A DNA stretch of 40,920 nt, from assembly GCA_020343615.1 (NCBI GenBank), contig CP070803.1:36696-77615 (forward strand), read 5' to 3'. This DNA is from Candidatus Woesearchaeota archaeon (GTDB lineage Archaea; Nanobdellota; Nanobdellia; UBA10117; GCA-020343615). The position numbers were made by a program, and so were the translations under genes. The first letter of the stretch is position 1. Every line of letters begins with the position of its first letter. The notes under the pieces are model-generated. The model saw only the letters and a list, made by a program, of their open reading frames with translations. It had not been told where the DNA came from and searched no databases. Shown here piece by piece: positions 7,882 through 40,920 of this stretch.

Positions 7882-9285
7882 ATGGTAGTAAAAATAGTAA
7901 AATTGATAACGCCGATAATCGAAGCAGGAGAAAAACTTGCAGGAGTTCAGTTTGGTGCTAAACGAATGGTTGTTGAACATCTTGAAAAATCGTTCAATGA
8001 AACGATAACTAATCTTAAAAAAACTATTAAAGAAAGTGAAGACAAATATTATTCTGATTTAGAAAAAACAAAAAAACTTATAGATAAATTAGATTCCACT
8101 TCCATAAAAGAATTTCCAGAATTAATAAATGAACTTAAGGAAAATAATATTATTGATCTTGTGGATGTTGTTGATTTTGCGAAGCAAATACAAGACATAC
8201 AAATACAGAAACCTGAAATTTCTGTTGTAACCCCAGAAGAAAAGATAGAAGAAGCAAGTGAAATTATTGTAGACCATAAGCCGAAACTCTCAAGCTTGGA
8301 GGAAAAAGTAGAAGGCAGTATTTCAGACTTTTCGGATACCAAACCTACAGAATTACCTTCTTATGAATCACTTCTTAATGAAGCACTTCCAGGTTGCAAG
8401 GTTAATCACACTACAATAAAAAGAACCATATCAAATGTTATAACTAATGAAAATAATTCTTTTCATAAAGAATTAGGAGATTACTTAAATAAAAGCACTG
8501 ATGCTCTCATGTATAGATACATTAAAACCTGTGGATCTTTTTGTTTACTTAATATTGGCATTATTAATGAGGATATTATGAAATCAGTTGTAGGAAATTA
8601 TGCTACTGACTTAGACAGTGTGGGTAAAGTCATACCTCACATAATGAAAAAAAAGGAATCTGGTAAAAGAATAAGAATAGAGAATATACAAAAACTTATT
8701 AATTGTGATGTAAACACAGCACATCAAACAATTCTAGCATCTATGGAAATAGGAATAACGCAATACTTAAACAAAGTGCCAGATCTAGATAGTAAAATAG
8801 AGCAGGATAAAACAATAGGATTGTCATATAATGACCTATTCAAACAAGCAATGCCTAATTACTCAGTGCCTTTTAAGAAGATGAGTACTCTCATTTCAAA
8901 AGCAATAGCTGATAACAATAAAACCCTTCAGGAATTAATAGATAAAACTGATAAGCCAAATTCACGCCCAGTATATCATAATATTATTAAGAATTGCGGG
9001 AATTTCTGTCTAAAAACATTGTATGAAAAAGGAGCTAAACCAGATAAAAAGGTTATAGAAAGCGTAAGGAATAAATATAATATCGCAATACCTGACCATC
9101 TAAATATATCTCTGGATTACATAAATAATAAGCAATCTGGAGGTGAAAAAATAAAGGCACACAGTATGAGAAAAGAATTAAATAAAACTTATGATCCAAG
9201 TTTAAGTCTGGATAACATTAATAATCTACAACTAGCATGTGCTGAAATTGGTTTAAGATCAGTTAATTTAAAGAACTCAAAGTAA
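7882..9285 (+). CDS. Hypothetical protein with coiled coil and internally duplicated domain
   Basis: This protein of 467 residues has no family I recognise. Residues 28-105 are predicted helical or coiled coil. A polar, acidic linker follows to about 155. The C-terminal two thirds consist of two related copies, at about 159-292 and 314-458. Both start with a Ser-Tyr and E/D-L-hydrophobic pattern (SYESLLNEALPG, SYNDLFKQAMPN). Both contain a cysteine motif 57 residues later (CGSFCL at 217-222, CGNFCL at 372-377), and they end in similar helices (ASMEIGI, ACAEIGL). There is no signal peptide or membrane segment. The stop overlaps convergent ftsY by 9 bp. Confidence 0.7.
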   Translation: MVVKIVKLITPIIEAGEKLAGVQFGAKRMVVEHLEKSFNETITNLKKTIKESEDKYYSDLEKTKKLIDKLDSTSIKEFPELINELKENNIIDLVDVVDFAKQIQDIQIQKPEISVVTPEEKIEEASEIIVDHKPKLSSLEEKVEGSISDFSDTKPTELPSYESLLNEALPGCKVNHTTIKRTISNVITNENNSFHKELGDYLNKSTDALMYRYIKTCGSFCLLNIGIINEDIMKSVVGNYATDLDSVGKVIPHIMKKKESGKRIRIENIQKLINCDVNTAHQTILASMEIGITQYLNKVPDLDSKIEQDKTIGLSYNDLFKQAMPNYSVPFKKMSTLISKAIADNNKTLQELIDKTDKPNSRPVYHNIIKNCGNFCLKTLYEKGAKPDKKVIESVRNKYNIAIPDHLNISLDYINNKQSGGEKIKAHSMRKELNKTYDPSLSLDNINNLQLACAEIGLRSVNLKNSK

Positions 9286-10272
9286 TTTATCCATTATTTT
9301 GTCTTTATCAAATTCTTCAAAATCATCGTAACCTTGACCTGTTCCTAGGAATAAAACAGGTTTTTTAGTAATATAAACTGCAGAAATCAAAGCTCCTCCT
9401 TTCTCATCAGCATCAGACTTGCTTAGAATTAATCCATCAATTCCTATCTTTTCATTGAACATCTTAGCCTGATGCACTGCATCATTACCAGTTAGCATAT
9501 CAACTGTTAAGATGGTCAAGTCCGGCTTGGCAACTCTTTTTACTTTGGCTAGCTCATCCATTAAGTCAGCATTTGCATGCTGTCTTCCAGCAGTATCTAT
9601 CAGAACTACATCTATATTCTTGGCTTTTGCGTGTTCTATTGCATCAAAAGCTACCGCAGCTGCATCAGAACCATATTTGTGTTTTATCACATTGACTTTT
9701 AATTTAGAAGCATGAGTTTCCAGTTGTTCTATTGCTGCTGCTCTGAATGTGTCTGAAGCTGCCAATACGCAACTCAAATCTTTTTTCTTCAGATAATTTG
9801 CAAACTTTGCAATAGATGTTGTTTTTCCAGTGCCATTAGTACCTACAAAGAGAATTACTGTAGGTTTTTTCTTTAGAACTTCATTTAACTTAACTTCCTC
9901 TACTTCGTTGAATATTCTTTCAATAAGTGATTTAAGAACTTCATCTATTTTTTTCTTTTTTTTATGATCTTTTTCTATTTCTTTTTTTATCTCTTCTTTG
10001 ATTAAACTCACAACTTCGTATGCGATATTATTTTCAAGCAAGGATGTTTCGAAATCAGAGAAAATCTTATCAAATTTTTCTTTTTTTCTTTTAGCTTCTG
10101 GTTTCTTTTCTTCTTTAGGAGCTTCTACTTTTGGTTCTTCTTTCTTAGGCTCTTCCTCTACTTTTTTTTCTTCTTTAACTTCCTCTTTCTTTTCAACCTT
10201 CTTCTCTTTAGGCTTATCTTCCTTTAACTTTTTTGTAAAATCCGAAAAACTCTTTTTTAAAAATTTAAACAT
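9277..10272 (-). CDS. ftsY: Signal recognition particle receptor FtsY
   Basis: This membrane-associated GTPase (331 residues) receives SRP54 with its cargo. After a basic amphipathic start (MFKFLKKSFSDFTKKL), residues 18-66 form a Lys/Glu/Pro-rich low-complexity region. The NG domain has P-loop GTNGTGKTT at 144-152, DTFRAAAIEQL at 174-184 and DTAGRQ at 226-231. The G4 position reads SKSD at 284-287, followed by ADEKGGA. The usual G4 is TKxD, so the first residue differs conservatively. The start overlaps prefoldin alpha by 8 bp in the conserved LX-prefoldin-ftsY cluster. Confidence 0.96.
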   Translation of the reverse strand: MFKFLKKSFSDFTKKLKEDKPKEKKVEKKEEVKEEKKVEEEPKKEEPKVEAPKEEKKPEAKRKKEKFDKIFSDFETSLLENNIAYEVVSLIKEEIKKEIEKDHKKKKKIDEVLKSLIERIFNEVEEVKLNEVLKKKPTVILFVGTNGTGKTTSIAKFANYLKKKDLSCVLAASDTFRAAAIEQLETHASKLKVNVIKHKYGSDAAAVAFDAIEHAKAKNIDVVLIDTAGRQHANADLMDELAKVKRVAKPDLTILTVDMLTGNDAVHQAKMFNEKIGIDGLILSKSDADEKGGALISAVYITKKPVLFLGTGQGYDDFEEFDKDKIMDKLL

Positions 10273-10666
10273 GTTTCTGCAACTTTTCTTGAGATTTTTG
10301 TGCTTCTATTGATAGGCTTTGAAAGTCTACTGTTAGATTATGTATATCTTCTTCTACTCTTTTAAGTCTACTATCAATTACATCTTGTGCTTCTTTGATT
10401 TCTTTAGGTACGAAAACCTCTGAGCCTATATTCATCAACAGTTGATCTGGGTTTTTAAGCTCGCTTTCTACATAAAGCCCTGGACTTATAGGAGCAAGTA
10501 TTTTAGATCCTTGTTTGAAACTTTTTACTTCTCCTACGCTATCTTTTAATTTTTGTAATTGTCCTGCTTGATCTTCAAGAGCAGTCATTTGTTTTTCCAG
10601 TTCTTGCATTTGCATACTCATTAACTGTAATTTGAAGTATTCTTGCTGAATTTCTTCTTCATTCAT
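10265..10666 (-). CDS. pfdA: Prefoldin alpha subunit
   Basis: This 133-residue subunit of the jellyfish-shaped hexameric chaperone hands unfolded proteins to the thermosome. It has the family architecture: an N-terminal coiled coil (about residues 1-45, MSMQMQELEKQMTALED), a central beta-hairpin region (KILAPISPGLYVESEL, GSEVFVPKEI) and a C-terminal coiled coil (about 93-133). It overlaps ftsY downstream and the LX ribosomal protein gene upstream by 8 bp each, supporting translational coupling and both starts. Confidence 0.92.
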   Translation of the reverse strand: MNEEEIQQEYFKLQLMSMQMQELEKQMTALEDQAGQLQKLKDSVGEVKSFKQGSKILAPISPGLYVESELKNPDQLLMNIGSEVFVPKEIKEAQDVIDSRLKRVEEDIHNLTVDFQSLSIEAQKSQEKLQKHV

Positions 10667-10829: not shown

Positions 10830-10937
10830 AGTTTTGATAGAAATGTTAATTATTTTTAAGATTATCGGTTGTTAAATTATACTTCTTTTAGATTAATAAT
10901 AATATATTTATACAATAATTACACTAATTCTTATGAT

Positions 10938-12482
10938 ATGAAGAAGGGTGTAAGTGACATAACAGCATTATTTTTTGTTCTAACATTAGTAATTGTTATA
11001 GGGGGATCCGCTGCTATATGGTTAACATATATACACGGTAAACCAAGCGTAGAAGCCTATACTCTACAAGGAAGGATATTAACATCTGCTAAATCTGATA
11101 TAGAGATATTATCTGGGACTTATTTTAATGGAACTCTGTATCTGGATATGCGTAATACAGGTCCTACTACTGTTTCTCTAGATGAATCTGACTTAGTCTT
11201 AGCTATAGAAGACATGAATTTACAAGCTGTATGTGCAGCAGATACTCTTACTGCTGGGGGTAATTTTGAAGCGGATATTACTAAAGATCTTCTAAATAGT
11301 ATGGATACGGAAAGATTAGTAATACATGTAAATGAGAGTAAATGTAAGATATTCAGAGATTTAGATTATAAGTATACTTTATTATTTTCTAGTAAAACGA
11401 GTGTATCTGGTCACTTTACTCCTGCTTCTCATTACGATACTGGGGAAAATGGTAATGGAGGGGGTGGAACTCCTGCGAATCAATATTTCAAATTCCAAAT
11501 TCAAACAAGTTCAGATAATGAAACTTTTAGTTTTCAAACAAGCAATGCAGTTAACTTATTTGTAGATTGGGGTGATAATACTAATAATACTTATTCTGGA
11601 TCAGGTTTGAGAAATCATGTTTATGCTGCAGCAGGAATCTATAATGTTTCTTTAAACGGCACAGCTAGTAGGATTTCATTCTACGAAGGGACAGAAGATT
11701 TACTTATTGATGTCCTGACAAATATGTCTGATGGTTTGACTGGAATAACCAGTGCTTACCGTATGTTCGAAAGTACAGCAAACTTCGGAACCTCTCCTTT
11801 AACCGAGCCAGCATTCTTTGATAAGATTTCTGAGAACGTAACAACTATGGCATTAATGTTCTATGGTTCACAATTCAACCAACCAATAGGAAACTGGGAC
11901 GTATCTAGTGTAACAGATATGACTGATATGTTCCGTGGTTCACAATTCAACCAACCAATAGGAAACTGGGACGTATCTAGTGTAACAAGTATGCAGGGAA
12001 TTTTCCACTCTTCACAATTCAACCAACCAATAGGAAACTGGGACGTATCTAGTGTAACAAGTATGTCGTCAATGTTTTACCTTTCTCCATTCAACAAATC
12101 AATAAGTAACTGGAATACATCAAATGTAATTAGTATGAACGTTATGTTCTATGGTTCACAATTCAACCAACCAATAGGAAACTGGGACGTATCTAGTGTA
12201 ACAAGTATGGTTGGTACGTTTTGGAATACACCATTCGATCAAAACATAAGCTCTTGGGACGTATCTAGTGTAACAGATATGACTGGTATGTTAGATAATG
12301 CTCCTATGTCTACTGACAATTATGATGACTTGATTATTGGCTGGAACTCTTTGCCTTCCTTACAAAATGGAGTTACATTTGGAGTTCAAAATTTAGAATA
12401 CTGTTTTGGAGAAGAAGCGAGACAAAACATTACAAATGATTATGGTTGGACATTTAGTGGTGATAGTAAGAATTGTGTATAA
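10938..12482 (+). CDS. Surface protein with archaeal pilin-type leader and BspA-like (DUF285) repeats
   Basis: The likely start is ATG 10938, giving 514 residues, because MKKGVSDITALFFVLTLVIV is an archaeal type IV pilin-like leader: a short basic KKG segment followed directly by a hydrophobic helix. An earlier ATG at 10869 would add an AT-rich, unnatural extension. After the helix come a beta-rich stalk, a Gly-rich linker (GENGNGGGGTP at about 173-183) and a PKD-like region with VDWGDNTN. Six 24-residue repeats of the FNQPIGNWDVSSVTSM type follow, then a capping segment with two cysteines. It is probably anchored in the membrane or assembled by prepilin peptidase and exposed for adhesion. 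Asn/Ser/Thr richness fits extracellular glycosylation. Confidence 0.88.
   Translation: MKKGVSDITALFFVLTLVIVIGGSAAIWLTYIHGKPSVEAYTLQGRILTSAKSDIEILSGTYFNGTLYLDMRNTGPTTVSLDESDLVLAIEDMNLQAVCAADTLTAGGNFEADITKDLLNSMDTERLVIHVNESKCKIFRDLDYKYTLLFSSKTSVSGHFTPASHYDTGENGNGGGGTPANQYFKFQIQTSSDNETFSFQTSNAVNLFVDWGDNTNNTYSGSGLRNHVYAAAGIYNVSLNGTASRISFYEGTEDLLIDVLTNMSDGLTGITSAYRMFESTANFGTSPLTEPAFFDKISENVTTMALMFYGSQFNQPIGNWDVSSVTDMTDMFRGSQFNQPIGNWDVSSVTSMQGIFHSSQFNQPIGNWDVSSVTSMSSMFYLSPFNKSISNWNTSNVISMNVMFYGSQFNQPIGNWDVSSVTSMVGTFWNTPFDQNISSWDVSSVTDMTGMLDNAPMSTDNYDDLIIGWNSLPSLQNGVTFGVQNLEYCFGEEARQNITNDYGWTFSGDSKNCV
11867..12298 (+). repeat. Six tandem 72-bp coding repeats
   Basis: Repeat units begin at about 11867, 11939, 12011, 12083, 12155 and 12227 with an exact 72-bp (24-codon) period. 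Units 1, 2, 3 and 5 share an identical core of about 49 bp starting TTCACAATTCAACCAACC, while units 4 and 6 have diverged. Identity at DNA level, including third positions, indicates recent duplication or gene conversion. The repeat class resembles the DUF285/BspA elements described as PARCEL in mycoplasmas and other bacteria. Confidence 0.92.
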
Positions 12483-31780: not shown

Positions 31781-32908
31781 CTATTCGATATTAAAAATTA
31801 GCTCTTTACCGTTTTTAAAGAACCCTTTGCTGGTTATTTTTATCTGCTTACTTTCAATAATCTTGCCTGCAATCTTAGCGTTAATTCCGAATTTATTAGC
31901 TTCCTCTATTACTTTTTCAGGTTCTGGAGTAATCACAGCCAAGCCTTGACCCATGTTCCATACCTTATATGCTTCCTCATCTTCTACATTTCCGAGTTCC
32001 TGGCAATATAACATTGCATCACAAGGGTCAAACAAATTAGTAAGTCTAGCACCGTAAGGAGTGGGTCTAAGAACTCTCTCAATTTTTTCCCTAATGCCTC
32101 CTCCAGTAATATGAGAAACTCCATGTATCTCACAGCAACCTTTGGTTTGAAAACCGCCGTGCATATGAACAAATGCTTTGGAATAGATCCTTGATGGTTC
32201 TAAAATAAGGTTTCCTAACTTTTCATTCTTGTATGTAGAATTATGCCAATTACTTCCTAAATTTTCTTTGAAGACTTTTCTAACCAAAGAAAGACCATTT
32301 GATCTGAAACCTTTTTCTTGAAAAACTACAATTGAATCGCCAAGTTTAATTTCCTTTCCTGTGAACAACTTGTCTTTTTTGGCAAACCAGATCAGTGTAG
32401 CTCCCCAATTATAAACAAAGTCACCATATCCTGCGACAGCATCTCCGAGCTGTGCAATCTCGCCATTAATTATTGCAACATTTGCTTCTTTAGCTGCTTC
32501 TACGTATCCGTCTGCAAGCTGCTTAATAATTGGAAGTCTCGTCTCATTAGTTCCTAAAGTATTGACATCTAATGTGCTACCTACAAGCACAGGTTCTCCT
32601 CCTCTTAGGATGGCATCGTCGCAAACCATAGCAAGTAAATCAAAAGCAAGTGTGTCATGCTTATTCATTCTCTGAGCAATTTCTGCTTTGGTTCCTACGC
32701 CATCAAAACCCATACACATAAAGCTACCTTCGGGTAACTTGCTTACGTCAACTACTCTAACTGCAGAAAAATCATCAAATGGCGAGATTATTTCGCCAAT
32801 ATTGTCTGTTCTGTTTTGCCACGACTTTTTTGATGCTTCGTAGAATATCCTTGCAGCTTTTGATTCAATATCTACATCAACTCCTGCCTTAGCATAATCA
32901 TCTGCCAT
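31781..32908 (-). CDS. purM: Phosphoribosylformylglycinamidine cyclo-ligase (AIR synthetase)
   Basis: PurM (375 residues) uses ATP to close FGAM to AIR, step 5 of purine synthesis. Signature segments are YAKAGVDVD at 5-13, GFDGVGTK at 67-74 and DLLAMVCDDAILRGGEPVLV at about 90-109. The Gly-rich SHITGGGIREKIERVL occurs further on. It is divergent from textbook PurM, with an expanded N-terminus and extra insertions, but the ATP-binding pattern is intact. It begins 1 nt after the purCE stop as the last gene of the operon. Confidence 0.93.
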   Translation of the reverse strand: MADDYAKAGVDVDIESKAARIFYEASKKSWQNRTDNIGEIISPFDDFSAVRVVDVSKLPEGSFMCMGFDGVGTKAEIAQRMNKHDTLAFDLLAMVCDDAILRGGEPVLVGSTLDVNTLGTNETRLPIIKQLADGYVEAAKEANVAIINGEIAQLGDAVAGYGDFVYNWGATLIWFAKKDKLFTGKEIKLGDSIVVFQEKGFRSNGLSLVRKVFKENLGSNWHNSTYKNEKLGNLILEPSRIYSKAFVHMHGGFQTKGCCEIHGVSHITGGGIREKIERVLRPTPYGARLTNLFDPCDAMLYCQELGNVEDEEAYKVWNMGQGLAVITPEPEKVIEEANKFGINAKIAGKIIESKQIKITSKGFFKNGKELIFNIE

Positions 32909-32909
32909 A

Positions 32910-34400
32910 TTAGTTAAGTTCTTTATCTGCTTTTTTTAACTTATCTATTTTTTCAGCATTTTTCTTTAGAATCATATTGCTAATATTAGCATTATGATAT
33001 CCCAATATCTGTGCTACGTGTCTTGCTGCGTTCGATGGTTTCAATATCAAAGAATTGGAACTTCCTGGAGGATTTCTAATGCATGAAATATATTCTTCAG
33101 GATTAGGTGGACAGCTGATTACCGGATGAACACTATGGAACGCTGCAACTCCAGATAATGCGTCAGTTCCTCCTGCAACTGCGATAATCACAACAGGCTC
33201 TAGAGAACCATTGTATTCTCTGATAATTTTCTCGCATAATGCTGGTTGTTTATGAGCTGAACAAATTCTTACTTTTGAAGGTATGCCATACTTATTCAAC
33301 TCTTCTTGTATTTTATCAATATGTGGCTTATCACTGTATGAACCTGCCATTATTACGGCGATTCCTCCCTTAATATAGCCTACATTCTGCAGGTTACTGA
33401 TAACTTCTAGTTTTGCATTTGCAGTTGGAAATCTGAAAGTTTTACCAGTAAGTGACTCGTATAATTTTATATATCTATACGACACTTCAACAACATCCTC
33501 ATCACTTAATTCAGGTATTTTCCCAGTGCTTCCGTAACTAAATCCTTTCTCTGTAAGAACATCTCTCACAAATTGTTTTGATAGCTCTTTGATCTTTAGT
33601 TGAGGTTTTTCTTTGAGTAACTCACTTACATTTTTGTATCTTCCAGTAGCCATTTCTTTCTTAATTAATTCGAATTTTCTGTATTCTTCAATGCTACAAT
33701 ACCTAGAAGAATCAGGAGTATTTGATTCGTCAATTAAGAATAAGTTCCCTCTTTCATCAGTACCAAATTCATATTTTGTATCAATGAAAATTAATCCTGA
33801 CTTTTCTGCTAATTGCGCTCCTCTTTGATATAATTTCAGAGAAACATCCTTAACTTTTCGAGCAAGTTCTTTACCTAATTGTTTTTCTACGTCTTCAAAA
33901 GTCATAGGTTCGTCATGCTTAGATTTAGTGGTAGGTGTAAAAATAGCATTATCAAGTTTTTGGTATCTTAGTAAGCCATTCTCTAGCTTCACTCCGCAGA
34001 TCTGTCTATTACCCTTCTCGTATTCTCCTGCAAGACTGCCCCAAACATAACCTCTAACAACGCATTCTACCATTATGTTCTTGTAGAATTTCTGAACTAT
34101 AACATTAGGATGCGGACTTTCAACAGAAGCATTTGGAATTATATACATTGGGTTTTCAAATGCCCATTCATTGAACATGTTAAGTATTCTCCCTTTGAAT
34201 GGTATACTTCTTCCTAGAACATAATCAAAAGCAGATACCCTATCACTAGCAACCATAATAATAGGTGAGCCGACTTTATCTGATGTAAAATGTATGTCTC
34301 TAACTTTACCGGATTTATGTTTACCTAATTCAGGTATAAATCCATAATCAATAGTATTATGAATATTCTCTTGTATTATTCTTTTATACTCCTTTGACAT
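32910..34400 (-). CDS. purCE: Fused SAICAR synthetase (PurC) and class II-like AIR carboxylase (PurE)
   Basis: This bifunctional protein has 496 residues. Residues 1-325 are PurC of the longer type: GKVRDIH at 31-37, ASDRVSAFDY at 51-60, FTPTTKSKHDEPM at 154-166 and FIDTKYEFG at 205-213. Residues of about 345-496 are PurE: MAGSYSD (351-357), SAHKQP (381-386), VISCPP (427-432) and IRNPPGSS (441-448). SAHK, not SAHR, and the proline-rich block resemble animal PAICS, the class II enzyme carboxylating AIR directly with CO2. No PurK would be needed. A GGAGGTG site precedes the ATG. Confidence 0.92.
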   Translation of the reverse strand: MSKEYKRIIQENIHNTIDYGFIPELGKHKSGKVRDIHFTSDKVGSPIIMVASDRVSAFDYVLGRSIPFKGRILNMFNEWAFENPMYIIPNASVESPHPNVIVQKFYKNIMVECVVRGYVWGSLAGEYEKGNRQICGVKLENGLLRYQKLDNAIFTPTTKSKHDEPMTFEDVEKQLGKELARKVKDVSLKLYQRGAQLAEKSGLIFIDTKYEFGTDERGNLFLIDESNTPDSSRYCSIEEYRKFELIKKEMATGRYKNVSELLKEKPQLKIKELSKQFVRDVLTEKGFSYGSTGKIPELSDEDVVEVSYRYIKLYESLTGKTFRFPTANAKLEVISNLQNVGYIKGGIAVIMAGSYSDKPHIDKIQEELNKYGIPSKVRICSAHKQPALCEKIIREYNGSLEPVVIIAVAGGTDALSGVAAFHSVHPVISCPPNPEEYISCIRNPPGSSNSLILKPSNAARHVAQILGYHNANISNMILKKNAEKIDKLKKADKELN

Positions 34401-34418: not shown

Positions 34419-35222
34419 TTACTTAAAGTAATTAACAGCATTTTTAAATATATTGAAATTTGTCTCAATAAACTCATCAATATTATTATTTTTTCTTTTA
34501 GATATTTCTTTTTTTAGATGGAATTCAGGCTCATTTACTGAATATATTGCTCTTTCAGGATGAGGCATCATACCCATTATTCTGCCCGTTGAATCGCATA
34601 TGCCTGCAATATCTCTCATAGCACCATTTGGATTTATTGGAAAAACTCCATTTGCAGGATTGCCTTTTTCATCACAGTACGTAAAAACAATCTGATTATT
34701 TTTTTCTAATTCTTCTAACACTTTTTCATCGCAAAAGAATCTTCCTTCCCCATGAGCAACAGGAAGATGAGTTACATCAACTCCTTTTGTGAATACACAT
34801 TTCGAGTTGTTATTTTTTAAATGAACCCATCTGCACTCATAACGATTCTGATTGTTCCATCGTATAGAGTGAACTCTCTGACCATAATCAGTCGAGGGTA
34901 AAGAGAATAATCCCAGATGTGTCATTATCTGGAATCCATTACATACTCCGAGGATTAATTTTTCTGATTTGATAAATTCCAGTAAATCATCCCAGAGATG
35001 ATTTCTAAGCTTATTTGCAAAAGCGTTACCTGAACCAGTATCATCCCCATATGAAAATCCACCAGGGAACATTATAATATCATAATCTGCTAATTTTTTC
35101 TTTTTAGATATTAAGTCATTAATATGGACAATCTCAGAGTCAGCTCCAGCTATGTTAAAAGCGTGTGCACTTTCTTTTTCACAGTTTATTCCATATCCGG
35201 ACATAATCAATACTCTTACCAT
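34419..35222 (-). CDS. purQ: FGAM synthetase glutaminase subunit
   Basis: PurQ (267 residues) is the class I glutamine amidotransferase giving ammonia to PurL. The nucleophile is C94 in GVCNGFQIM, and the catalytic His/Glu are H221 and E223 in MMPHPERA. The N-terminal sequence VRVLIMSGYGINCEKES and MFPGGFSYGDDTGSG (51-65) are typical of PurQ. It is longer than the roughly 225-residue bacterial PurQ and similar to the C-terminal domain of large PurL proteins. It directly abuts purL, its partner. Confidence 0.95.
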   Translation of the reverse strand: MVRVLIMSGYGINCEKESAHAFNIAGADSEIVHINDLISKKKKLADYDIIMFPGGFSYGDDTGSGNAFANKLRNHLWDDLLEFIKSEKLILGVCNGFQIMTHLGLFSLPSTDYGQRVHSIRWNNQNRYECRWVHLKNNNSKCVFTKGVDVTHLPVAHGEGRFFCDEKVLEELEKNNQIVFTYCDEKGNPANGVFPINPNGAMRDIAGICDSTGRIMGMMPHPERAIYSVNEPEFHLKKEISKRKNNNIDEFIETNFNIFKNAVNYFK

Positions 35223-38162
35223 TTAATAATCCTTGAACCTCTCTTTATAGACTTCTTCTAGCTTTTTTACATTCGAATTAATGATTTCTTTATTGTTTTT
35301 TATTACAAATTCTTCATTTTTTACAAGGCCGATTTCACCGAAAACGAAATCTTTCATCTCGCTTTCGAACTCTTCTTTATTCGTAGGATCAATTGTTACA
35401 ATAAATCTTGATTGTGATTCTGAATACAATATCTTCTCAATAGGTAAATCTTCATTAGGTGCTTTGCTAAAATCTACTTCAACTCCTAATTGCCCGCCAA
35501 TTGCCATTTTAGCCAAAGTTATGATTAAGCCTCCAGGTCCAACAGATGAGCAAGAACTAAACATTCCTTTTTGATTAAGCTCATACATTTTTTCGTATAA
35601 TTCTCTGGCTTTTTTTGCATTGACTTTAGGTGACTTTGATCCAATTTCCTTAAGTGCGTAGTAGAACTCACTACCGCCACACTCATCTTTTGTCATTCCA
35701 ATCACATAGATTATATCTCCTGGAACTTTCAAATCCGTAGTAGTTGTTTTATGAATATCATCGATAACTCCAATTGAGGATATCATCAAAGTAGGCAAGA
35801 CAGAAATTTTTATTGGATTGTTATTTTCATCGAATCCTTTGAAGTCATTATACATGCTATCCTTTCCAGATATTAATGGAGTCTTGTATATAGTGGTGTA
35901 ATCATAGCAAGCTTTTGCAGCATCTTTCAATTGAGCTAGTCTTTCCGATTCACCAGAACTACACCAACAGAAGTTATCCAGTAATGCTAGATGATTTATA
36001 TTACCTCCTACAGCAACACAATTCCGTATAGATGTATCAATTGCGCACGCAGCCATGTCATAACAGCTGATTTCACTTAATCTAGGATAAAGACTTTGTG
36101 ACATTACTATCCCTTTTTTGCTTTTAGCTAAAGGTCTTACTACAGAAGCAGTTCCATTAACTCGTCCTTTACCTTGTAATGGCTTGATTATAGAATTATT
36201 TTGAACTTCGTGATCATATTGCCTTGATATAAATTCATAACTGCAGTTGTTATGATTTCCGAGTATTTCTTCAAACAATTCAGTGTGATCGTCTATGACT
36301 ATCTTAGGTTCTTTTTTATTGTATGGGTACGGTTTGGTTTTTAATTTTCTTTCGGGTAATCCGTCGTGTAAAAAGTCCATATCCAAATTGAATATCTCCT
36401 TACCGTTGAATCTTACAATAGCTCTGTTTGTGTCATTGAATTTACCTATAATTGATGTTTCAACGCCTCTGCTTTCCATAAGGTCAACAAATTCATTGAG
36501 TTTATCCTCAGGTACAGCTAGAGTCATTCTCTCCTGTGACTCGGAAATCCAGGTTTCCCACGGCTGTAATCCTGGATACTTCAAGGGGACTTTTTCAAGA
36601 TCAACGACAAAACCTCCGCATTCTTTGGCCATTTCTGCAACAGAGCAAGATAATCCTCCTGCACCATTATCTGTGAGACTATTATACAATCCTCGGTCTC
36701 TTGCTTCTTTTACCAAAGCATCTGAAAATTTCTTCTGAGTAATTGGATCTCCTATCTGAACAGCTGTTGCTGGACTACCTTCATCCATTTCTTCAGATGA
36801 AAAGGTAGCTCCGTGTATTCCGTCTTTACCAACTCTTCCACCAATCATAACTACATTGTCTCCTGGTTGAGCTTCTTTCTCATGACTTAACTCACCATTT
36901 GAAATCTTTCTAGGAATCAAACCAACAGTACCTACAAAGACGAGGGGTTTACCCTTGTAATGATCATCAAAAAACACAAAACCCTGAGGTGTTGGTATTC
37001 CTGAACAATTACCTCCAACATTAACTCCATATATAACACCATCTAATATTCTTCTTGAAGATAGTGATGGATTTGTTTTATTTTTACCTCTGTAAATTAT
37101 TCTTGTGTCTTCAGGTCTTCCAAAACAGTAGCCGTATTTATTTACAATCGGCAGAGCACCTAAACCGAATCCAATAGTATCTCTATTAACCCCGACGATT
37201 CCAGTAATTGCTCCTCCAAAAGGATCCAAAGCAGACGGACTATTATGCGTCTCTACCTTATCAGTAACCATAAACTCATCGTCAAAGATTATTCCTCCAG
37301 AATTATCCTTGAAAACTGACAAACAGAAATCCTTATCTCCTAGATCTTTTCTTATTTTATTTGTTGATCCTTTGATATATCTGGAAAATATTCCTTCAGA
37401 TATATCATCCATCTCTGTTGCAAAAATAGTATGCTTACAATGCTCAGACCATGTCTGTGCTATTGATTCCAGTTCAATATCTGTAGGATTTCGTCCTTCT
37501 TTCTTGTAATAATCCTGAATAGCATGCAAATAATCAAGATCAAGAGCCAAAGGTCCTCTTCTCTTATTTGTCTGAGGATCAAGTATTCCTTTCTTTCCAA
37601 GTTCCATTAATTTTTCATCGCTTACATTCAAGTCAACTTCAACAACATCTTGACTCTGATGAAGATTAACTCTAGGTACAATGTAGTCCATGCCTTCATC
37701 TTTGAAATACTCTTCATAGGATTTTATGTGAAATCTTTCAATTAATACATTAATTAATTCATGAGATATTTTTTCAACGTCCCCTCGATTTATATCTCCT
37801 TTAATGAAAAGAAGCTTTGAAGAGAACACTTTACTAAGTCCAATATTAATCTTAAATAAATCATCAATTATTTCAGTAGCAGTATGTGCCACATTATCAG
37901 TTACTCCAGGTAAGAATCCGAGTTCTAAAGCCCAATCAAATTCTATATCGTGCGGTGAATTTATTCTTACAGTTTCAGCAACAGGACTGTAGAGAGAATT
38001 AGCTATTTTTTCTATTTGTTTTTCAGAAAAATCATATTGTATTGTATAAACTTTACTGATATCTAAAGAAATATTATAGTCTTTAAACTTTTTTTCAAGT
38101 ATCTTTGCTTCTGAGTTCTTTTCCTTAGAATCTATTTCTATTCTGAAAATTTTCTCACCCAT
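35223..38162 (-). CDS. purL: FGAM synthetase, PurS-like head fused to PurL
   Basis: This large subunit has 979 residues and converts FGAR, ATP and glutamine-derived ammonia to FGAM. Residues 1 to about 150 contain two ferredoxin-like stretches resembling the separate PurS of other organisms. The PurL core begins with QTWSEHCKHTIFA (about 236-248). ETHNSPSALDPFGGAITG near 300 is the ATP-binding loop, and TDNGAGGLSCSVAEMA occurs in the middle. The C-terminal glutaminase is absent and supplied by purQ. The start overlaps PfkB by 8 bp. Confidence 0.94.
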   Translation of the reverse strand: MGEKIFRIEIDSKEKNSEAKILEKKFKDYNISLDISKVYTIQYDFSEKQIEKIANSLYSPVAETVRINSPHDIEFDWALELGFLPGVTDNVAHTATEIIDDLFKINIGLSKVFSSKLLFIKGDINRGDVEKISHELINVLIERFHIKSYEEYFKDEGMDYIVPRVNLHQSQDVVEVDLNVSDEKLMELGKKGILDPQTNKRRGPLALDLDYLHAIQDYYKKEGRNPTDIELESIAQTWSEHCKHTIFATEMDDISEGIFSRYIKGSTNKIRKDLGDKDFCLSVFKDNSGGIIFDDEFMVTDKVETHNSPSALDPFGGAITGIVGVNRDTIGFGLGALPIVNKYGYCFGRPEDTRIIYRGKNKTNPSLSSRRILDGVIYGVNVGGNCSGIPTPQGFVFFDDHYKGKPLVFVGTVGLIPRKISNGELSHEKEAQPGDNVVMIGGRVGKDGIHGATFSSEEMDEGSPATAVQIGDPITQKKFSDALVKEARDRGLYNSLTDNGAGGLSCSVAEMAKECGGFVVDLEKVPLKYPGLQPWETWISESQERMTLAVPEDKLNEFVDLMESRGVETSIIGKFNDTNRAIVRFNGKEIFNLDMDFLHDGLPERKLKTKPYPYNKKEPKIVIDDHTELFEEILGNHNNCSYEFISRQYDHEVQNNSIIKPLQGKGRVNGTASVVRPLAKSKKGIVMSQSLYPRLSEISCYDMAACAIDTSIRNCVAVGGNINHLALLDNFCWCSSGESERLAQLKDAAKACYDYTTIYKTPLISGKDSMYNDFKGFDENNNPIKISVLPTLMISSIGVIDDIHKTTTTDLKVPGDIIYVIGMTKDECGGSEFYYALKEIGSKSPKVNAKKARELYEKMYELNQKGMFSSCSSVGPGGLIITLAKMAIGGQLGVEVDFSKAPNEDLPIEKILYSESQSRFIVTIDPTNKEEFESEMKDFVFGEIGLVKNEEFVIKNNKEIINSNVKKLEEVYKERFKDY

Positions 38163-39054
38163 TTGCGAATTCCTCTATTTCTTCATGAGTTGGCATTGTA
38201 CGAGCTCCTTTTTTAGTTATGGCTATTCTGCCAGCAAGTATAGCATATTCAATAGCCTCTTCTTCGGATTTGCCATCTAATAAAGCCGAAACAAATGCTG
38301 CGGTAAAACAATCTCCTGCTCCTGTAGAATCAATGAACTTCTTAGATATTTCCTTAACTCCGAATTCTTCTAGTTCACCATTTTTGTAGTATTTTGCTCC
38401 TTTGCCACCACACGTAACAATAATATGAGGAACTAATTCACATAATTCTTCTACGTTATCTAAACTTCCTACCATTAATTCAACTTCTCCTAAGCTAGGA
38501 GTTATATAATCACATAATTTCAAGAGACGTCTTAATTTTTCTATACCATGTCTAGCAAGGATATTTCCAGGATCCATTGCTATTTTTATGCCTCTTTTCT
38601 TGGCTTCACTTGCAATAGCAGTGTATAATTCAATTATGTTTTCTCCGTCAAGGCTTCCAAAAACAATAAATTTTGTATCTTCGTATAATTCTTCAGCAAA
38701 ATCCTCTATATCTAAATCAACATGAGGATAGATATACATTCTTCTAGCTGCTTTTTTATTTACAAAACAATAAAGGATGTTATTTGGTTTATTCGTTCTT
38801 TTGGCAAATGAATAGTCTACATTAGCCTTATCAAAGTCTCTGAGTAACATAGAGGTATGAACATCTTCGCCTATGTTTCCAAAGAAAAAAGATTTCTTTC
38901 CTAATCTTCCCAGTCCGTCTGCTATATTTCCTGCTTGTCCGCCTGAACGTATAACTAGTTCATCGATTACTATTTCTTCATCATCATCACAAAATTCATC
39001 TACATATGAGATGATGTCTACATTCACTGCTCCAATACTTACTACTTTTTTCAT
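38155..39054 (-). CDS. PfkB-family sugar or nucleoside kinase
   Basis: This ribokinase-fold kinase has 299 residues. The N-terminal substrate region GGQAGNIADGLGRLGK starts at 38, and the ATP/anion-hole signature DSTGAGDCF is at 242-250, with D248 as the expected catalytic base. The lid and central beta sheet are intact. Its substrate cannot be read. Nucleosides (adenosine, inosine) or ribose are reasonable given its position in a purine operon, but this is context only. It overlaps purL by 8 bp and the HAD gene by 4 bp. Confidence 0.9.
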   Translation of the reverse strand: MKKVVSIGAVNVDIISYVDEFCDDDEEIVIDELVIRSGGQAGNIADGLGRLGKKSFFFGNIGEDVHTSMLLRDFDKANVDYSFAKRTNKPNNILYCFVNKKAARRMYIYPHVDLDIEDFAEELYEDTKFIVFGSLDGENIIELYTAIASEAKKRGIKIAMDPGNILARHGIEKLRRLLKLCDYITPSLGEVELMVGSLDNVEELCELVPHIIVTCGGKGAKYYKNGELEEFGVKEISKKFIDSTGAGDCFTAAFVSALLDGKSEEEAIEYAILAGRIAITKKGARTMPTHEEIEEFANG

Positions 39055-40118
39055 TTTGAAAATTCGTTATATTTCTCCCTCGCGAATTTATCAAACTCTT
39101 TAGTACTCATAAGATTAAATTTAGTTGGTATGTTCAGATTAGAATTATCTAATTGCTCACGAATAATTTCTTCAATGTATCTATCATCCTTACCTGTTTC
39201 TTCATAAATTCTATGAGGGATTCTCTCAGTTTTCATTAATTTTGACCTTTTTAATATACCTTCAAGAGAAACATTATTATCTTTCCCCATTATTACTACA
39301 GCTTCTGGCAAAACATCTTTTCTAAGTTCTTTATTATATGTATTTGAAGAAGTTAAAAGAGGTAATACTCCTAACAAAGACGAGCCTATAATAGATATAC
39401 TTGCGTTCTTCAATGCCAAATCGCAACCAGGATTGAAGGCTATTGAATGCGGAACATCCTTTAAAGTGTCTGTATCTGACCAGCTATCACCAATATGTGT
39501 ACCTTTGTAACTTGTATCATCAGGATTCAGTATTTTTCTAACAATTCGTGATTTGTAAGTTCCTCCAATAAACCTCTCGATAGTTCCATTGTATTGACCA
39601 TTAGATATTCCTATCTGTGTTGCTATTACATCCTTTATTCCTGCATTCTTTGCTATTTCATCAGCTACTTCCTGATGCGTTGCAGTTACTGCTGTGATAT
39701 TATATGACTCTTGTGATAATGCATCAACGAACCTAGGTGCATCTGGAATTAATCTCAAATTTCTCCCAACAATTTTATTGAACTCGGGAGAGACGCCAGT
39801 TAATAGTTGTACGCCTGAAAAACATAATGGTGCATACCAACAGTAAGGAATACCTTCCTTTGCTACTTCTACATTCATATTACCATATTCTTTGTATTTG
39901 TTCTCGCCATCATTTCCTGCAAGATATCTAGCTACGATAACTCCTGAATCATCTTGATTTATAACTCCGTCCATATCTATAGATAATAATCCGTTCTTTT
40001 GAACATGGGCAAAGTAGATTTCACCTATAAAATGCAGTTTATCAATAAATTCCTTTCTGGAAGAACAATTTTTCTCGAACATGTCCCCTGCTCTGATATT
40101 AATTATCTTGTATGCCAT
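39051..40118 (-). CDS. HAD-superfamily hydrolase in the purine operon
   Basis: This protein of 355 residues has HAD motif I IDMDGVIN (D48 nucleophile, D50 acid/base), motif II Thr145 in ITAVTATHQE, probable motif III Lys189 and motif IV THIGDSWSDTD (about 207-217). The cap is inserted between motifs I and II. Residues 235-355 form a C-terminal extension of unknown role. It is probably a phosphatase or phosphotransferase. A nucleotide 5'-phosphatase or an enzyme working with the PfkB kinase is a guess. It is 1 nt from purB and overlaps PfkB by 4 bp. Confidence 0.85.
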   Translation of the reverse strand: MAYKIINIRAGDMFEKNCSSRKEFIDKLHFIGEIYFAHVQKNGLLSIDMDGVINQDDSGVIVARYLAGNDGENKYKEYGNMNVEVAKEGIPYCWYAPLCFSGVQLLTGVSPEFNKIVGRNLRLIPDAPRFVDALSQESYNITAVTATHQEVADEIAKNAGIKDVIATQIGISNGQYNGTIERFIGGTYKSRIVRKILNPDDTSYKGTHIGDSWSDTDTLKDVPHSIAFNPGCDLALKNASISIIGSSLLGVLPLLTSSNTYNKELRKDVLPEAVVIMGKDNNVSLEGILKRSKLMKTERIPHRIYEETGKDDRYIEEIIREQLDNSNLNIPTKFNLMSTKEFDKFAREKYNEFSK

Positions 40119-40119
40119 T

Positions 40120-40920
40120 TTAAACGTTAATTTCCGGATTTGCCTTTCCTATTAGGTTAGAGTACTTTCCAATAACTGGCTTGGCATTATTTTTCAAAAA
40201 CTCTTCAGTCTGAATACTGGCTGCTCCTGCAAACCTCTCGGGCTTCTCGAGAAGATTGTTTAGATATTCCTTTGTTACTGGAATATTTTTATCATTAGCT
40301 AATCTATCAAATAAATCATTTGATTTTCCATCTAATTTTACTCTTTTTGCTGCTTCAACAGAATGTTTCTTTATAATCTCGTGCATTTTCTGCCTGTCTT
40401 CGCCTTTTTTACACAAATCCATGAGAATGACTTCAGTTGCCATAAATGGCAATTCCTCATCAAGATGTTTTTTGATTTGAGCAGGATAAACAACCATTCC
40501 GTCAGTTATGTTTTGATATAATTTCAGAATTGCATTTGATAACAAAAACAACTGAGGAATATCCATTCTTCTTATTGAAGAATCATCAAGTGTTCTTTCA
40601 AACCAATGACTGGCATGAGTATGGGAAAAATCAAGTTGCAAGTTTATTAGTTTTCTACAGAGTGCAGTCATCCTTTCAGATCTCATAGGATTCCTCTTGT
40701 AAGCCATTGCTGAGCTTCCTGTTTGTGATTTTGCAAATGGCTCTTCAACTTCTTTTAAGTTAGACAATAACCTCAAATCAACTGCAAATTTATGAGCTGA
40801 TTCAGCAATTCCTGAGAGTACTTTTGATAGAATCGCATCAATCTTTCGAGTATAAGTCTGCCCAGTAACTGGGTAAGAAGTTTCAAAACCTAGTTTCTTG
40901 CTTACTAATCTATCTAATTC
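40120..40920 (-). CDS. purB: Adenylosuccinate lyase, C-terminal part (5' end outside the window)
   Basis: The open frame continues to the window edge, so the apparent TTG start at 40776 is internal and the gene is truncated. PurB splits SAICAR to AICAR and adenylosuccinate to AMP, releasing fumarate. The fumarate-lyase signature GSSAMAYKRNPMRSER is present, followed by HWFERTLDDSSIRRMDIPQL. YQNITDGMVVYPAQI, ELPFMATEVILMDL and the C-terminal domain complete it. These blocks resemble animal ADSL closely (from memory), more than the short bacterial/archaeal PurB. It is the first visible gene of the purine operon. Confidence 0.95.
   Translation of the reverse strand, partial: ELDRLVSKKLGFETSYPVTGQTYTRKIDAILSKVLSGIAESAHKFAVDLRLLSNLKEVEEPFAKSQTGSSAMAYKRNPMRSERMTALCRKLINLQLDFSHTHASHWFERTLDDSSIRRMDIPQLFLLSNAILKLYQNITDGMVVYPAQIKKHLDEELPFMATEVILMDLCKKGEDRQKMHEIIKKHSVEAAKRVKLDGKSNDLFDRLANDKNIPVTKEYLNNLLEKPERFAGAASIQTEEFLKNNAKPVIGKYSNLIGKANPEINV

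Follow-up and report, generated by a model that had tools for sequence, protein, structure and literature searches.

A PurC-PurE fusion with a variant, class II-like PurE half in a purine operon of a Woesearchaeota archaeon

The purCE gene and its operon

The window (the whole stretch of DNA analysed here, 40,920 nucleotides of contig CP070803.1 from a Candidatus Woesearchaeota archaeon) contains a single ORF of 496 aa with an ATG start, purCE, at 32910..34400 on the minus strand, encoding an N-terminal PurC (SAICAR synthetase) and a C-terminal PurE (AIR carboxylase family). Pfam searches assigned residues 29-244 to SAICAR_synt (E 9.1e-50, 170 bits) and residues 349-483 to AIRC (E 2.4e-24, 86 bits), indicating that the bifunctional layout of PAICS, with the SAICAR synthetase domain N-terminal to AIRC in one chain, is present. 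An earlier note on this DNA had proposed such a fusion with the motifs SAHK, VISCPP and RNPPGSS. Indeed, one ORF carries both domains, and the motifs lie at residues 381-384, 427-432 and 442-448, respectively. The features of the locus, all on the minus strand, are as follows, with the evidence in brackets.

31781..32908, minus strand: purM, divergent, TIGR00878 205 bits against a cut-off of 236 (domain/family search)
32910..34400, minus strand: purCE, fused PurC and variant PurE, 496 aa (ORF, domain searches, PDB matches)
32913..33362, minus strand: PurE half, residues 347-496 (domain search, PDB match, structure model)
32949..32951, minus strand: Lys484, in 39/39 variant rows (alignment)
33054..33074, minus strand: NPPGSSN, residues 443-449, variant-specific (alignment)
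33105..33122, minus strand: VISCPP, residues 427-432, with the CPP turn common to class II (alignment)
33150..33176, minus strand: AGGTDALSG, residues 409-417, variant signature in place of class II AGRSN(A/G)L (alignment)
33249..33260, minus strand: SAHK, residues 381-384, human 301-304 with catalytic His303 (alignment)
33387..34400, minus strand: PurC half and its tail, residues 1-338, long yeast/mycobacterial type (domain search, PDB match, structure model)
34419..35222, minus strand: purQ (domain/family search)
35223..38162, minus strand: purL, 979 aa, extended at its N-terminus by ~200 aa (domain/family search)
38155..39054, minus strand: PfkB-family kinase gene, overlapping purL (Pfam)
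39051..40118, minus strand: HAD-family phosphatase-like gene (Pfam)
40120..40920, minus strand: C-terminal portion of purB, truncated at the window end by a 100-N scaffold gap (family search and gap inspection)

The gene sits in a purL-purQ-purCE-purM operon. Upstream of it, in the same orientation, lie purQ, purL, the PfkB kinase gene, the HAD-family gene and the purB fragment; purM lies downstream. The ~200 extra N-terminal residues of PurL precede the match to the PurL model and are possibly an attached PurS-like part. The PfkB-family and HAD-family genes together fill the interval between purB and purL (38155-40118, minus strand), and a PfkB gene also precedes purL in the fused locus of GW2011_AR5 (L045). 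The two parts of purB lie far apart in the genome record (G000:C1:76893-77618 and 784181-784762). The idea of a true split gene was rejected, as each half borders a stretch of exactly 100 N; the simple reading is that the contig broke within purB, and the record seems to consist of contigs joined by fixed gaps. The window itself holds no N, but its end adjoins such a 100-N gap. Elsewhere in the window, a 537-aa protein (10869-12482, plus strand) that begins with a hydrophobic segment and contains DUF285 repeats (PF03382, E 1.8e-55) is likely a cell-surface protein.

The PurC half aligned with the 301-306-aa PurC proteins of yeast and Mycobacterium abscessus and is thus of the longer type, as the earlier note had judged. 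In a predicted structure of PurCE (mean pLDDT 85.6, with the lowest confidence at residues 411-414, inside AGGTDALSG), this half matched yeast PurC (1obg) with a Z score of 29.5 over 278 residues. An assembly accident as the source of the fusion was ruled out by 11 distinct proteins with the same domain order and the same type of PurE. These data indicate that purCE is a real, conserved PurC-PurE fusion, whose PurE subclass differs from the animal one.

The substrate pocket and class affinity of the PurE half

To place the PurE half, residues were compared among 38 class I, 15 class II and 39 variant rows, all distinct sequences, in human PAICS numbering; one AGKSN protein (L115), which a motif rule had filed under class I in a first PurE tree, was set aside here and counted as class II in model scoring and in the final tree. 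According to the available text of a study of human PAICS (PMC9376930), the active-site model includes Gly330-Arg331-Ser332-Asn333-Gly334; in the calculations Arg331 contacts the AIR phosphate and His303 acts as the general base, and the amides of Ala302 and Gly334 hold CO2. The window PurE reads Gly-Gly-Thr-Asp-Ala at 330-334, so that the A-G-R-S-N pocket motif of the human, Bombyx and Treponema enzymes and of all 15 class II rows, themselves sorted by this motif, is replaced by AGGTD. The class I A-A-H-L motif is likewise absent, the window having T-D-A-L. Position 331 is Arg in 15/15 class II rows and in 0/39 variants (Gly 33, Ala 4, Asn 1, Lys 1), and position 333 is Asn in 15/15 class II, Ala in 38/38 class I and Asp in 39/39 variant rows, full counts which arise partly by construction, since class II rows were sorted by AGR[SC]N and variant rows by a motif demanding Asp. 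Two observations are independent of the sorting motif: the variant label falls on one clade in a whole-domain PurE tree, and the genome scan that found 38 variants was keyed on NP.GSSN, RI.SAHKQP and AGS.SD.

The catalytic residues are kept. Equivalents of Ser301, His303 and Asp277 occur in 39/39 variants, and the Lys following the catalytic His and the Cys-Pro-Pro turn are also present (Lys304 in 95%, Cys350 in 100% and Pro352 in 97% of variants). Position 334 is His in 84% of class I rows and Ala in 92% of variants, and position 304 is Arg in 82% of class I rows. SAHK was considered as a mark of class II and found weak, as Lys occurs there in 18% of the 38 class I rows too. Moreover, the variants have invariant pocket residues of their own (Asp413, Asn443, Ser447, Asn449 and Lys484 in window numbering): a variant-only NPPGSSN block replaces the M/L-P-S-G turn of class II, and an invariant Lys lies near the C-terminus. 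The proposal that the motifs match animal PAICS therefore went too far: SAHK and VISCPP are identical in the human enzyme, whereas RNPPGSS is variant-specific and AGRSN has become AGGTD, a change that the earlier note had overlooked.

Several comparisons support a class II affinity of the PurE half, as judged from its sequence. Its PDB matches were led by human PAICS (6e-21) and the Treponema denticola class II PurE (1e-18), the best class I match reaching 1e-10. A class II model outscored a class I model for 39/39 variant PurEs (130 versus 79.5 bits for the window), and the mean identity of the variants was 31.7% to class II and 26.2% to class I. The PurE half of the predicted structure had a Z score of 19.6 to the Treponema class II enzyme (3rg8) and of at most 17.1 to the class I chains among the matches listed. 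These comparisons supported the earlier note's choice of class II over class I. With the NCBIfam purE model, the four or five variants tested scored 72-92 bits against a cut-off of 149.6, and canonical class II fusions also fell below it. Taken together, the variant PurE appears to be a subclass of its own that is akin to class II, its substrate pocket being unlike both textbook types.

Distribution, phylogeny and the missing PurK

Among 378 genomes of the window's archaeal class, 38 gave a PurE match in a profile search. The 30 with a readable locus comprised 13 with the variant, two with canonical class II PurC-PurE fusions (G054 and G360), one with a short frame resembling class II (G223) and 14 with class I PurEs, mostly of ~250-290 aa. 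A second scan, covering one genome per species with an 11-row PurE alignment, yielded 40 loci, 38 of them variant; the same kind of genome scan with the window protein alone as query found no relative. By record labels, the archaeal carriers are Nanoarchaeota, Woesearchaeota, Pacearchaeota and other archaea (DPANN), and the bacterial ones are Spirochaetota, Zixibacteria, Cloacimonadota, Thermodesulfobacteriota (Desulfobacterota), SAR324 and one Patescibacteria genome. On the Patescibacteria contig, the fused operon (purL-purQ-purCE-purB-purM) shares its contig with genes for ribosomal proteins S2 and L31, EF-Ts and RRF, and thus lies in a real bacterial genome. On another contig, labelled only 'bacterium' (L051), two adjacent DUF1246 plus DUF1297 genes (8151-10366), which we take to be PurP-like, follow the fused purine operon and suggest an archaeal origin.

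In the phylum of the Spirochaetaceae variant genome, 176 of 198 genomes matched a profile mixed from class II and variant sequences, and the 30 loci read were one variant (the Spirochaetaceae genome itself), 11 class II or near and 18 class I. Two of these 11 loci are PurC-PurE fusions (L116 and L117). Since canonical class II fusions occur both here and in two genomes of the window's archaeal class, the PurC-PurE fusion is not specific to animals. On the Spirochaetaceae chromosome the variant lies within purL-purQ-purN-purD-purE-purC-purB-purF, and neither purK over cut-off nor another PurE was found there. In most loci, the variant PurE has purC and further pur genes as neighbours. Four bacterial genomes of Thermodesulfobacteriota/SAR324 (G384, G387, G388 and G389) have it away from recognised pur genes, together with a class I PurE joined to PurD. 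These orphan variants (L052, L055, L056 and L057) share 83-88% mutual identity and have no recognised pur gene or common neighbour nearby. The class I PurD-PurE fusions of the same genomes (L096, L097, L098 and L099) are also unaccompanied by a purK over cut-off.

A PurE tree of 58 rows was built by a careful method and left unrooted, with class I cut to 12 rows and nine class II/variant rows thinned out; the trees also omit near-identical copies from the same genomes, the frame-broken L028/L079, L029 and L099. All 34 variant rows fell into a single clade (100/100, stem 1.24), and class I formed a second one (100/100). The tree position with class I that the earlier note had named as contrary evidence was thus not obtained, and class II membership is left unproven by the tree alone, because a canonical class II clade that leaves the variant outside was not rejected by an AU test (p 0.371). 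The grouping of class II plus variant against class I (100/100) was dropped as evidence for class II, since an unrooted tree says only that class I is one group. On these sequences, the variant PurE may be either a derived class II or a third class. Neither the fused variant PurEs as one clade (p 0.139) nor the single ones as one clade (p 0.422) was rejected by AU tests, so that an order of fused first and single later is not established.

In the PurC tree, the PurC halves of the 11 variant fusions formed one clade (100/99), and the variant fusion therefore arose once. Three of the four canonical-fusion PurCs lay apart from this clade, and that of G054 (L017) stood beside it with weak support (82/57). 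The PurC halves of the canonical class II fusions (L017 of G054, L027 of G360, L116 of G465 and L117 of G551) are not one clade, and PurC-PurE fusion may therefore have arisen more than once. When the variant purE is a gene of its own, purC often comes next, sometimes overlapping it; these purC genes belong to several PurC lineages, and the fused order is the reverse.

Transfer of the fusion from animal PAICS, akin to the eukaryote-to-Archaeoglobus transfer of class II PurE proposed in the available part of Brown et al. (PMC3261824), could draw on this precedent, the same domain order and the class II likeness, and we consider it highly improbable. Human and Bombyx PurE grouped with the canonical class II fusions (95/86), outside the variant clade, a placement that comprises two animal rows and PurE only. 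In addition, the human PAICS match spans the PurE half only, the human PurC half remaining unmatched at E 0.001, and canonical class II fusions with a long-type PurC occur in the same archaeal class and in bacteria. The idea that the fusion is not a copy of the animal one thus held, the PurC half being of a different, long type and the variant PurE a clade of its own.

The earlier note had also asked for purK in the genome. With TIGR01161, purK over cut-off was found in 0/35 variant genomes searched, the window's genome included; the variant genomes of L060, L069, L071, L073 and L075 stood outside this search. Elsewhere it was found in 0/2 canonical-fusion genomes, 0/2 class I Chloroflexota, 11/14 controls and 1/14 class I genomes of the archaeal class (G053), G114 of that class having a full-length sub-threshold match of 151 bits. 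The variant is the sole PF00731 match in 29/35 genomes, the other six being the four Thermodesulfobacteriota/SAR324 genomes with a PurD-joined class I PurE and two (G391 and G394) with a weaker second match.

The window's genome is one 919,375-base record joined over 100-N gaps and 83.84% complete, and genes missing from it, purK and purF among them, are therefore weak evidence. It has purD, the AICAR transformylase domain of purH and both purB parts; purF, PF00551 (purN; GAR transformylase) and PF02222 (purT) were not found in this record. In G206, which has later pur genes, purF and a PF00551 GAR transformylase were likewise not found, and no purD passed its cut-off. These gaps may reflect incomplete assemblies or a shortened pathway. 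GW2011_AR5 (G378), with the same fusion, has matches for purF and purD (both below cut-off) and PF00551.

These data bear on two other functions for the PurE half. As an N5-CAIR mutase with class I chemistry, it would use N5-CAIR formed non-enzymatically or by an unrecognised substitute for PurK. Like class I, the variant has no Arg at position 331, and the available part of Brown et al. (PMC3261824) describes some archaea without PurK that have a class I-like PurE and holds non-enzymatic N5-CAIR possible. However, the variants' Ala334 and Lys304 stand against the His and Arg usual in class I, their CPP turn has the class II form, the class II model was preferred throughout and no purK exceeded the cut-off in any of the 35 variant genomes searched, and we regard mutase activity as improbable. 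A structural or regulatory role, or a related reaction on a different substrate, would accord with the variants' own invariant pocket residues and with the orphan variants of Thermodesulfobacteriota and SAR324, whose neighbours are non-purine genes. The universal Ser301, His303 and Asp277 equivalents, the purC or other pur neighbours in most loci and the many genomes in which the variant is the sole PF00731 match argue otherwise, and such a role seems quite unlikely.

Proposed function and comparison with known systems

We consider it probable that purCE encodes a bifunctional, PurK-independent AIR carboxylase/SAICAR synthetase with a distinct PurE subclass. The CO2-using carboxylase activity is inferred from kinship, the kept catalytic residues, the operon and the missing purK. 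In the proposed scheme, the PurE half would convert AIR and CO2 to CAIR without ATP and without PurK, CAIR would pass to the PurC half of the same chain, and this half would convert it with ATP and aspartate to SAICAR, so that neither PurK nor its ATP would be needed. The PurE half would work with the kept catalytic Ser301, His303 and Lys304 and the Cys350-Pro351-Pro352 turn; Arg331-Ser332-Asn333 being changed to Gly-Thr-Asp, new pocket residues would take over the contacts to phosphate and CO2. Against this function, the class II Arg331 that contacts the AIR phosphate is gone in the variant, and in G384, G387, G388 and G389 a class I PurE is also present, so that the variant is not the sole candidate there; the incomplete state of the window's genome and the AU result on class II membership weigh on the same side.

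A further, more tentative possibility, to which we give somewhat less than even weight, is that the variants constitute a third PurE class, PurK-free and with a rebuilt pocket, which was fused in DPANN and passed between domains and phyla. Its pocket would be defined by Gly-Thr-Asp for Arg-Ser-Asn, NPPGSSN for MPSG and the invariant C-terminal Lys. In fused or single form it would have spread among archaea, Patescibacteria and several further bacterial phyla, and these proteins would escape both the purE model cut-off and class assignments that rely on AGRSN.

PurE is a standard example of a single fold that supports two chemistries, with a few pocket residues making the difference. A large natural clade in which the catalytic Ser and His are kept and the class-defining triplet is changed offers a ready test of which residues decide between CO2 and N5-CAIR. 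In addition, recognition of the variants, of which those scored with the NCBIfam purE model fell below its cut-off, fills a gap in the purine pathways of small-genome archaea and Patescibacteria. Class I PurE is of interest as an antimicrobial target differing from the human enzyme, and an inhibitor screen on the E. coli enzyme is described in the available part of PMC11451730.

Among archaea, the available part of Brown et al. (2011, PMC3261824) describes class II-like PurE in Archaeoglobi, double-domain PurE in Methanobacteria and PurE of uncertain class in Halobacteria, and mentions the PurCE fusion there only as common in eukaryotes. The PurEs of Methanomassiliicoccales are likewise left without class assignment in the available part of PMC4153887, and class II PurE is known biochemically in Treponema (PMC9376930, in part). 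A literature search on class II/III PurE, PurCE fusions and DPANN purine biosynthesis, with most subscription journals outside its coverage, gave no paper evidently on the variant.

PurCE resembles animal PAICS (human 2h31/6yb8, Bombyx 4ja0) in its PurC-then-PurE order, in SAHK and VISCPP, identical in human, and in the PurK-independent chemistry expected of it. In contrast, its PurC half is of the long yeast/mycobacterial type, its PurE falls in a separate clade, and AGRSN and SLRLPSG are changed to AGGTD and CIRNPPGSSN, the human enzyme having LPSGLGC at the NPPGSSN block. With the T. denticola class II PurE (3rg8) it shares the fold (Z 19.6, 2.3 A, 147 residues), the catalytic Ser/His/Lys and the CPP turn, whereas the identity is 30%, the pocket triplet and the C-terminal turn are changed, and the window PurE is fused to PurC. 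The canonical class II PurC-PurE fusions (L017, L027, L116 and L117) have the same order and a long-type PurC, but they keep AGRSN and their PurC halves lie outside the variant-fusion clade. Class I PurE (N5-CAIR mutase), which works with PurK, has the PF00731 fold and the catalytic His in common with the variant; it differs by A-A-H in place of the variant's T-D-A, by Arg in most cases at 304 and by Val for Cys at 350, and the variant genomes are without a purK over cut-off.
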